From positions 1 through 41,765 of IMG/VR virus record IMGVR_UViG_3300037293_000271: a DNA stretch of 41,765 bases. The stretch is one strand, 5' to 3'. The DNA is from a virus. The notes below the pieces were generated by a model. It did no database searches and was not told where the DNA came from. It saw only the letters and a program-made list of their open reading frames with translations. Shown in pieces: positions 24,140 to 41,520 of this stretch (the stretch's first letter is position 1; every line of letters starts with the position of its first letter). The position numbers and the translations under genes were made by a program.

Positions 24140-24895
24140 TTAAAAAGGAGATTTGAAGTTGATTTGAAAAGGATGGTTGATAGTACCCATTTTGCGGACG
24201 TGGATCACGTCGTCGCCGAAACATTGCTGGAGTTCCTTCAGTATTTTTTCAAGCGTCTCGAAGTTCCGAAATTCAGCTAATCCACCCGCACCAACCCAAG
24301 TATCTGAGTAGTGAAAATAGAAACGGTTGTCCCTCCAAATTTTGCGGTGATAATGAGCATTAAGCCCCGAAATCCAATAATCTTCCTGATAACGTTGCTC
24401 AGGTCGAAAAAATAGTTTAGAGCCTGTGAGGAGCCCAAAAGCACACGTATTTACGTAGCCTGAAACCTGAATTGGTTGCAGGCTCTGGAACGTGAACGGT
24501 TTACCAGAAGTATTGAATCCGAATAAAAACGCTCCGGCACTTCGGGCGGCTCTGGCGGTTGCCTGAATCACATTGTAAATTTCGGTAGGAGTGAGTTTCT
24601 CGGTTTCGCCACGCTCGGTGTAAATGCGTTTCATGTACTTCAAATCATCGTCAAGATGAAAAGCAGAACCGAAATGTTCGTACATCCATTGGCGTTTCCA
24701 AGACAATCCGATGACGTTATCAGGATGGGTTACGATTTCAACATCATACCCGACGTGCTCAATGTATTCTGAAAGTTGAGATTCAGGAATACAGATTATC
24801 GAGTTCGCCACTTTTTTGTGGGTGGTAATGCGTTCAGCCCGCTTGTGGCTGGCGATAAGTACCGGAAGGATTTCCTTTTTTATCGTTTGTTCCAT
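24140..24895 (-). CDS. Glycosyltransferase (GT-A fold, TET-associated type?)
   Basis: The 251 residues start with a strand-helix unit (LPVLIASHKRAERITTHKKV). A metal/nucleotide-sugar site follows at AFHLDDDLKYM (DxD-type motif at about residue 78), then a helical acceptor region and a C-terminal HYHRKIW ... YFHYSDT part. The pattern K-R-A-x-R-x-x-T-x-K, PESQ and P-x-N-x-I-G-L-x-x-K-R-Q-W recalls the phage TET-associated glycosyltransferases thought to glycosylate modified bases in DNA. It overlaps the ParB-domain gene by 16 bases. No base hydroxylase or hydroxymethylase is present here, so the substrate is open. Confidence 0.65.
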   Translation of the reverse strand: MEQTIKKEILPVLIASHKRAERITTHKKVANSIICIPESQLSEYIEHVGYDVEIVTHPDNVIGLSWKRQWMYEHFGSAFHLDDDLKYMKRIYTERGETEKLTPTEIYNVIQATARAARSAGAFLFGFNTSGKPFTFQSLQPIQVSGYVNTCAFGLLTGSKLFFRPEQRYQEDYWISGLNAHYHRKIWRDNRFYFHYSDTWVGAGGLAEFRNFETLEKILKELQQCFGDDVIHVRKMGTINHPFQINFKSPF

Positions 24896-25494
24896 AGCTC
24901 CGTAAACTGTTTAGAAGTTAATACGTAGCTTTCTCCAACATTATCGGTCTTGTAGTCTTTCATTACCTGAAGACCCAGTACCGAGCGGACGAAGTTTTCG
25001 TCAATCGAATTGTCGATCACAATAATCACCGCACTCCATTTCTCCGAATACTTAGGAACAATAGGGTATTCGGGTTCAATCTTTGCCTCAATTTCGGCAG
25101 TTGCATCAGCCAGATCCTCGAAGCTGAAACCAAATTCTTCGAGGTCTAAGAACTCATCGAATTCCTTTCGGAGCATTTCAATATCCCATTCCCCAGCGTG
25201 GCTGTTTTCGATAATCATAACTTCCCGAAGCTCCGCTTCAGTAAGTTTGCGAGTGGCTGACCGAACGTCAATTTCGGTGTCTTGAAGTCCGTACTGGACT
25301 AACAGTTCGCAGCGTTGCTTTCCTCCGAGCAGCGTTCCGTCAAAGTCCCGGACGGGTATGGAAATCATACCGTACTTCTGGACTCGCTCCCAAAGTTTTT
25401 GCCGATCTTTTAACTTGATTTTGCGGGGATTTTTCGCAGATGGCAATAGGTCGCCAACCCTCACCCGTTGGGTGATGAATAATTCATTTATCAT
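24880..25494 (-). CDS. ParB/Srx-domain protein
   Basis: The 204 residues carry an N-terminal ParB-like nuclease/sulfiredoxin fold (about 10-110): VRVGDLLPSAKNPRKI, then FDGTLLGGKQRCELL (the G-G-x-x-R box) and then AELREVMIIENSHAGEWD. The C-terminal half is acidic with a small alpha/beta segment (KWSAVIIVIDNS). ParB-domain proteins beside terminase or DNA-modification genes are common in phages and some act on modified nucleotides. The overlap with the glycosyltransferase implies joint expression. Confidence 0.82.
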   Translation of the reverse strand: MINELFITQRVRVGDLLPSAKNPRKIKLKDRQKLWERVQKYGMISIPVRDFDGTLLGGKQRCELLVQYGLQDTEIDVRSATRKLTEAELREVMIIENSHAGEWDIEMLRKEFDEFLDLEEFGFSFEDLADATAEIEAKIEPEYPIVPKYSEKWSAVIIVIDNSIDENFVRSVLGLQVMKDYKTDNVGESYVLTSKQFTELWNKR

Positions 25495-26716: not shown

Positions 26717-26898
26717 AGTAGTTTTTTGAAGTCTTCAATCTTATCAAACACCGTAATCGCTTCAAGGTATTCAAACGGCTCTTCGTAGTGGTCGGGTTTC
26801 GGAAATTCCGCTAAGTAGTAATCAAGTAGCTTTTTTAGGGTTTGGGGGCAAATACCTTCACTTTCTAAGTATGCAGTTACGGAAGGATATTTTAACAT
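26713..26898 (-). CDS. Small acidic protein downstream of a structured RNA
   Basis: This 61-residue acidic helical protein (MLKYPSVTAYLESEGICPQT) has no recognised family. It is the first gene after the structured RNA at 26905-27039; the 3' strand of the predicted pseudoknot ends only seven bases before its ATG. It is coupled to the next gene by ATGA overlap. If the RNA is cis-acting, this gene and its two followers are the regulated operon. Confidence 0.6.
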   Translation of the reverse strand: MLKYPSVTAYLESEGICPQTLKKLLDYYLAEFPKPDHYEEPFEYLEAITVFDKIEDFKKLL

Positions 26899-26904
26899 AA
26901 TGTA

Positions 26905-27039
26905 GCCGATTGGTCCTTGCAGATACTTAGAATAGCCATAAGCTCACTCCCGCATACGGCACTTTCAACCGCTTGCCAATCGGCAATTTCTTGCCTGGCA
27001 CGGAAGTGGCTTAATAACTGGCTTGTAAAAGTATCTGCA
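26905..27039 (-). ncRNA. Candidate structured RNA (cis-regulatory or free ncRNA)
   Basis: On the minus strand, TGCAGATACTT (27039-27029) pairs perfectly with AAGTATCTGCA (26928-26918). Inside, CACTTCCG pairs with CGGGAGTG, extended outward by TAAGC/GCTTA and GCCA/TGGC. A hairpin GGCAA-GAAA-TTGCC has a GNRA loop. GCCGATTGG (26984-26976) is complementary over nine bases to CCAATCGGC (26913-26905) downstream of the closing helix, forming a pseudoknot. A TACTTTTG box at 27050-27043 would start the RNA at the closing helix. I know no class that fits. Confidence 0.55.
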
Positions 27040-27042
27040 TAA

Positions 27043-27050
27043 CAAAAGTA
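27043..27050 (-). promoter_or_regulatory. Promoter box TACTTTTG before the structured RNA
   Basis: This perfect TAnnTTTG box on the minus strand lies between the upstream terminator's T-run and the RNA's closing helix. No good TTG is found at the -33 position. Confidence 0.5.
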
Positions 27051-40932: not shown

Positions 40933-41520
40933 ATGAAGAAAATTTACGTGTTATTCTTAGCCGCACTAATTTGTAGCTGCGAAGGACCGCAGGGCATTCC
41001 AGGTCCACAAGGCCCAAGAGGCGAGCAGGGCTTGCAGGGTACATCCGGAGCCAATGGGCTACCCGGTGTTCAAGGAATGCCCGGTATTCAAGGAGCAACA
41101 GGGGCTACTGGGACAACCGGGCAAAAAGGCGACAAAGGAGATACCGGAATCGGGCTTCCCGGACGAGACGGCTCACAAGCAAAAGTTTATGATTTTAATC
41201 TAGACATATCCCGTCCGCTTGCAAGCTTCAAGTATCCGTTAGAGCTGCACCCCCTTGATATTGTTTTCGTTTATATTAACCGCGGAAACAGCTACTCCCC
41301 ATTACCATTCAGGGGCTTCTCAAGAACAACCGACAGGGCAGATTTCGTCAGACTCGACACCAGTTTCGATGCTTGGAAATTCAATTTATACATCGAAAAC
41401 GAAACCGTCATCCCCGCAGGCTCGACCTTCAATTTTCGTGCAGTAATAGTAAGGGGGGTAAAGCCATCTGGCAAAATCCCTGCATACGAAGACTTAGTAA
41501 TCCAGTACGGTATTCAATGA
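40933..41520 (+). CDS. Collagen-like surface lipoprotein
   Basis: The 195 residues begin with a lipoprotein signal ([16 protein letters not shown], lipidated Cys at 16). About 20 Gly-X-Y triplets follow (about 18-80; [13 protein letters not shown]) with several interruptions, and then a globular beta-rich domain of about 110 residues. It is expressed rightward next to the repressor and outside the lytic operons, a typical place for a lysogenic conversion gene. It would be displayed on the host outer membrane. There is no virion context. The family is clear; the benefit to the host is not. Confidence 0.85.

Follow-up and report, generated by a model that had tools for sequence, protein, structure and literature searches.

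The stretch of DNA analysed here (the window), a virus record, is 41,765 bases long and carries large terminase and portal-like genes on its minus strand; the virus looks like a temperate phage of Bacteroidota. A structured RNA is located between the end of the head-gene cluster and the genes p61 and p230. Elsewhere in the window, a tRNA-Met (52-126), a likely attachment site, lies directly before a tyrosine-recombinase-like integrase (171-1409). A ParB-like protein adjoins a TET-associated glycosyltransferase (PF20691) at 24140-25494; the pair is kept in relatives and may serve the phage in DNA hypermodification. A collagen-like GXY-repeat protein with a signal-like start containing a cysteine is encoded at the lysogeny end (40933-41520). 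The features of the RNA locus, in minus-strand order, are as follows.

30653-29778, minus: protease-like gene of the head cluster
29242-28250, minus: capsid gene, after which small genes extend to 27111
27085-27053, minus: intrinsic terminator of the upstream head-gene operon (14-pair stem, T-run)
27050-27043, minus: Bacteroidota -7 promoter element TACTTTTG (TAnnTTTG)
27038-26905, minus: structured leader RNA, class A, spanning the predicted first base G27038 through the pseudoknot 3' strand
27038-27029, minus: P1 5' strand, GCAGATACTT
27023-27019, minus: P1b 5' strand AGCCA, pairs with TGGCT at 26938-26934; certain lineages only
27013-27000, minus: P2 5' strand, pairs with 26953-26939 with A26944 bulged
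26999-26975, minus: P3 hairpin GCCA-GGCAA-GAAA-TTGCC-gat-TGGC, with the pseudoknot 5' strand within its 3' side
26984-26976, minus: pseudoknot 5' strand, GCCGATTGG
26971-26957, minus: P4 hairpin with the 7-nt loop TGAAAGT (26967-26961; family consensus UGNRAGU)
26953-26939, minus: P2 3' strand
26928-26919, minus: P1 3' strand, AAGTATCTGC
26918-26914, minus: linker AAGGA before the pseudoknot 3' strand, conserved (family consensus [AG]GUGA-CC)
26913-26905, minus: pseudoknot 3' strand, CCAATCGGC, 6 nt before the start codon
26898-26713, minus: p61, gene of a small protein of 61 aa, the putative regulated gene (ATG at 26898)
26716-26024, minus: p230, next gene in the p61 operon, with homologues at the same position in related phages

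The putative leader RNA in the window

An earlier, sequence-only reading of this locus had described a structured leader with a long closing helix. The perfect 11-bp helix is present in the minus-strand DNA, where TGCAGATACTT (27039-27029) pairs with AAGTATCTGCA (26928-26918); as RNA it would not stand in full length, since the usual -7 spacing would put the RNA start at G27038 and the transcribed P1 would thus have 10 pairs. The inner helix, CACTTCCG (27008-27001) with CGGGAGTG (26952-26945), and the GAAA-capped hairpin GGCAA-GAAA-TTGCC (26995-26982) were both located on the minus strand as described, together with the 9-bp complementarity between the two pseudoknot strands. The distance of the second of these strands from the ATG had been given as seven bases and is 6 nt. 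The TAnnTTTG box and the terminator before it were found as well, and no terminator occurs between the RNA and the ATG. The predicted fold has a minimum free energy of -60.3 kcal/mol, compared with -38.7 ± 4.2 kcal/mol for dinucleotide-preserving shuffles (z -5.2, reached by 0 of 200).

The full pseudoknot and P3 are mutually exclusive because P3 also uses the nine bases of the pseudoknot 5' strand. Their computed duplex energies in the window are of similar size (P3 -12.2, pseudoknot -14.8 kcal/mol, the latter with no loop cost), and the pseudoknot proposed earlier is probably one of two alternative states.

Across the family the promoter element is held at a fixed distance from the RNA. Of 46 distinct copies, 31 have exactly 4 nt between the end of TAnnTTTG and the first G of P1, and 34 have 3-5 nt, against an expectation of 0.0026 per 6-nt window. 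In Flavobacterium johnsoniae the same element spans -12 to -5 (PMC6847099), and with this spacing the predicted +1 is the first base of P1, 27038. As judged from the sequence, the leader would thus be transcribed from a promoter of its own immediately behind the head-gene terminator; terminators occur at the equivalent place in the relatives L089, L015, L010, L012, L178 and L181. In Bacteroidota, where Shine-Dalgarno sequences are absent, structure around the start codon tunes translation (PMC6847099).

Relatives, covariation and novelty

Scanning viral contigs for close relatives of p61, p230, MCP and TerL returned nothing, and a three-sequence TerL alignment (the window and two distant phages) was needed to reach relatives, which were then found in IMG/VR and in GTDB genomes. 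Among them is a prophage of Emticicia aquatilis (L089) with a terminase 64% identical. The relatives found through TerL carry the same RNA at the equivalent gene position with helix sequences that are almost entirely different. A covariance model built from the first six sequences gave two further copies. As lower bounds, with the best candidates per genome scored, a second model matched 40 of the 222 collection genomes that belong to the Emticicia family (taken to be Spirosomaceae), while a third, broader model matched 29 of 390 genomes of the order (Cytophagales) and 2 of 395 phylum-wide, both already among the matches of the order. A sequence-pattern scan gave 30 hits, of which the L010/L012/L175 group was the only real return, and the RNA was absent from fifty phage records with more distant terminases.

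The family architecture comprises P1, P2, a junction with P3 and the T-loop-like hairpin P4, and a pseudoknot from the strand joining P3 and P4 to the 3' tail. Three N-padded alignments of 6, 8 and 21 sequences (A4, A6 and A9), left gapless by MAFFT, were made by hand because minimum free energy folding and MAFFT alone misalign P1 and P2. Being built to fit the structure, these alignments bias the following counts towards it: paired cells amount to 97-98% in all three (66-74% in shuffles) and to 97.7% in the 21-sequence alignment, where 20 of 25 pairs show compensatory changes on both sides, and the covariation scores are 0.69-0.83, against about 0.2 for shuffled and 0.07-0.19 for frame-slid versions. 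Alignment choice cannot be the cause of the near-complete replacement of the P1 sequence in unrelated copies. In the 21 sequences, seven of nine P1 pairs and all six counted P2 pairs are altered on both sides, and the 6-bp core of the pseudoknot is 99.2% paired with three compensatory pairs; the five P3 pairs are 100% paired in the 8-sequence alignment. All nine P1 positions are paired in nearly all of 36 segmented copies. An absence of compensatory changes in homologues, the outcome that the sequence-only reading had named as speaking against it, is the opposite of what was found. A 5-bp element like P1b also occurs in L089 and L178.

Invariant across the 21 aligned sequences are the first two pairs of P1 (G-C, C-G); the near-invariant unpaired or loop positions are GGCA after the pseudoknot strand, UGNRAGU in the P4 loop, and GUGACC before the tail. 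T-loops follow the rule UNNRANN, which the P4 loop obeys in its sequence, and it may be a T-loop.

Rfam 15 (4227 models, known riboswitches and ribozymes among them) gave only tRNA above the gathering threshold in the window and only flanking tRNAs at 20 loci; at a permissive E-value there were chance hits to the upstream terminator only. Literature searches found no description of the RNA family. The structured RNA family is real and new, and the earlier view of a structured leader or riboswitch of no known class is supported by the Rfam result, covariation, constant spacings and alternative pairings. As in riboswitches, a conserved aptamer-like fold with compensatory changes lies in 5' leaders, together with a computed expression platform, an alternative pairing able to hide the start region. 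Self-cleaving ribozymes (HDV-like, twister, pistol, hatchet) were rejected, the Rfam ribozyme models being unmatched.

Phage and chromosomal copies

Copies in the window and in prophages (class A) lie between the head-gene terminator and the gene of a small three-helix protein. Homologues of the head and packaging-module genes of the window phage flank 16 of 17 tested genome-derived class A loci, the exception being L191. The class A-type RNA of that locus (L191:1648-1516, minus) has a P3 that overlaps the pseudoknot fully, and is followed by a Dam-type methylase ORF in place of p61. Class A has 17-23 nt between GACC and ATG, with 6-14 nt left between the pseudoknot 3' strand and the ATG. Most of 22 copies can form a pseudoknot of 9-10 bp, and in nearly all of them P3 takes 3-10 of the bases involved (mean 6.9). 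In several copies the P3 5' strand has the sequence of the tail (CCAACCGGC in L195 and L198), so both compete for the same partner.

Some close relatives are without the RNA. In L013, L014 and L088 the terminator is followed by a p61-like or other ORF, and L011 has neither the RNA nor a p61-like gene. Compared with the near-identical L012 (6290-7000), L011 (7900-8500) shows a clean loss between short GGGT repeats that covers the terminator, the RNA and most of p61; this loss could be an assembly effect. The RNA is dispensable, in that L013, L014 and L088 keep a p61-like gene without it and L011 does without both.

Class B copies are chromosomal, with up to six per genome, and their exact core is absent from IMG/VR. 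They usually precede the gene of a protein of about 95 aa without family, at a GACC-to-ATG distance of about 35-41 nt in intact copies, and their pseudoknot of 6-8 bp overlaps P3 little. In most of them the P1 3' strand can pair with 8-16 nt of the coding start in the constant register AU|GC[AG]AAC, a pairing that tracks changes in the P1 sequence (GCGAAC, GCAAAC, GCGAAG); in L209, L190 and L192 the longest pairing of this strand was found elsewhere. Simple shuffles of the start region equal the observed pairing of single sequences in 7 to 71 of 500, and since such pairing is only mildly unusual, the argument for alternative pairing in class B rests on the constant register. In six or more copies (L190, L197, L204, L207, L209, L231) the ORF is truncated or broken and the RNA intact. 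Two class B RNAs stand in tandem about 420 bases apart at L192:1651-1081 (minus) and at G082:C12:1011396-1011942.

Three helices are predicted with high confidence for the p61 family, which matches no known family, and with lower confidence for the class B protein. The downstream proteins of class A and class B showed no similarity when their profiles were compared, and from their sequences the two are apparently unrelated. Foldseek gave nothing significant for p61 against viral and PDB models or for the class B protein against viral models. Because these proteins are without known function, they give no hint of a ligand.

Defence genes are frequent beside class B. The gene immediately upstream had a PADLOC match (E <= 1e-10) at 11 of 20 class B loci, which are not independent because some copies share a locus by descent, as against 1 of 19 arbitrarily chosen loci in the same genomes. 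The matches were RhuM/Fic, PsyrA, type I modification and specificity subunits, a YhcG-type nuclease, DUF3800 and others. In 19-kb regions (L240-L259) the RNA and its small ORF usually adjoin a defence-type gene, often divergent (RhuM/Fic, PsyrA, HsdM, HsdS, YhcG, RelA/SpoT-like, DUF3800), and L242, L247 and L249 represent one host locus with different cargo in different genomes. Class B RNA may take part in defence or may simply occupy variable regions.

A candidate two-state leader and its alternatives

On balance the RNA probably represents a new family of cis-acting leaders that combine one sensor core with two output platforms and act as a two-state switch on translation initiation. Structure, covariation, the spacing to promoter and start codon, and conserved competing pairings are the basis of the leader reading; cis action is favoured because constant promoter spacing, constant start-codon distance and conserved alternative pairings fit it. 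We infer that the RNA is produced as part of an mRNA, that translation is off in the pseudoknot state and that some signal shifts the balance between pairings.

The RNA would be the 5' leader of the p61 mRNA, beginning at the first base of P1. In one state of class A, P3 would be formed and the tail and start region left unpaired; in the other, the P3 3' strand would pair with the tail, immediately before the AUG, and hinder the ribosome. For class B the choice of the P1 3' strand would lie between its P1 partner and the AUG plus first codons. A molecule or protein sensed by the shared core would tip these choices. The two classes would not switch alike, because class B pseudoknots overlap P3 little. 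For the pseudoknot to form within one molecule, P1 would have to fold back along P2, because a linker of only 4-5 nt has to bridge the P1 base and the top of P2; in several lineages the two helices have similar lengths, which permits the fold-back without proving it. The dispensability of the RNA in L013, L014, L088 and L011 counts against a switch, as do the intact RNAs with broken class B ORFs, which also fit a role of the RNA itself.

The confinement of class A to one phage group and to one position between head and packaging genes would suit a protein-read leader, whose reader (p61, a structural or packaging protein of the phage, or a host RNA-binding protein) represses or activates the operon autogenously with no small-molecule ligand; leaders of this kind are common in phages. 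This explanation is nevertheless unlikely, given the many copies of the same core before an apparently unrelated chromosomal gene and the resemblance of the conserved unpaired core (GGCA, UGNRAGU, GUGACC) to a tertiary fold. A phage-only protein cannot be the sole reader, as the core also precedes the class B gene. For the same reason, with one core before apparently unrelated phage and host genes, autogenous control by p61 is less likely than a reader common to both (a metabolite, an ion or a host protein).

It is quite unlikely that the RNA works as a stand-alone noncoding molecule, either as a packaging RNA like that of phi29, forming rings by intermolecular pairing of tail and joining strand, or as a trans-acting small RNA. 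Its own promoter after a terminator, its position upstream of the terminase genes, segments that could pair between molecules and its retention beside broken class B ORFs all fit such a role, but the start codon follows at a constant distance with no intervening terminator, the close relatives L013, L014, L088 and L011 package without the RNA, and class B copies lie outside phages. Like phi29 pRNA it is a phage RNA of 120-170 nt that its two ends close by pairing, with segments capable of pairing between molecules, and lies near packaging genes; unlike it, the RNA appears to be an mRNA leader and is absent from relatives with similar terminases, and the terminase here is an ordinary large subunit. 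An essential phi29-type packaging RNA was rejected on the grounds that relatives with a homologous terminase are without the RNA and class B is not in phages.

A very stable fold from +1 could protect the mRNA as a constitutive structured 5' UTR (a stability element or insulator) without sensing; this is very doubtful, since mere stability needs neither mutually exclusive pairings nor a conserved unpaired core. Finally, a folded single-stranded DNA recombination site (integron attC-like) or mobile-element end, with covariation arising from DNA hairpins, would account for the dispersal of class B, several per genome, beside varied defence genes in hypervariable loci, but is highly improbable in view of the promoter at fixed P1 spacing, the fixed distance to the start codon, the T-loop-like RNA motif, G-U pairs and pseudoknot, and the lack of a recombinase recognised among immediate neighbours. 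Integron attC sites as such were rejected, as the P1 ends depart from the RYYYAAC/GTTRRRY core and no integrase was recognised among immediate neighbours.

The switch-like leader resembles riboswitches of the SAM-II, preQ1-II and preQ1-III type in its 5' position, in a pseudoknot 3' strand directly before the start codon and in a short conserved unpaired core; it differs in the long P1-P2 closing helix, three-way junction, T-loop-like hairpin and competition of P3 with the pseudoknot, and in having no Rfam match. With T-loop RNAs such as the cobalamin riboswitch and T-box stem I it shares, in sequence only, a nearly invariant 7-nt loop, but it has no Rfam similarity to those families. The phage structured RNAs manA and wcaG came from comparative genomics (Weinberg 2010, PMC2864571). 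Like them, the present RNA was found by covariation, is common to phages and bacteria and lies upstream of genes; sequence, structure, host range and genes are different, and Rfam, which includes most motifs of that study, was unmatched.

A new, well-supported structured RNA family is thus added to a bacterial branch with few known leaders, and one core with two output platforms, in phage and host, makes it a good orphan riboswitch candidate. A speculative and in itself improbable extension is that class B copies are host counterparts reading the signal which the phage uses to time its packaging operon, so that infection would be detected and a small effector of the defence island turned on. 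The association with defence on the host side and with packaging on the phage side poses a testable question on RNA-based sensing during infection.
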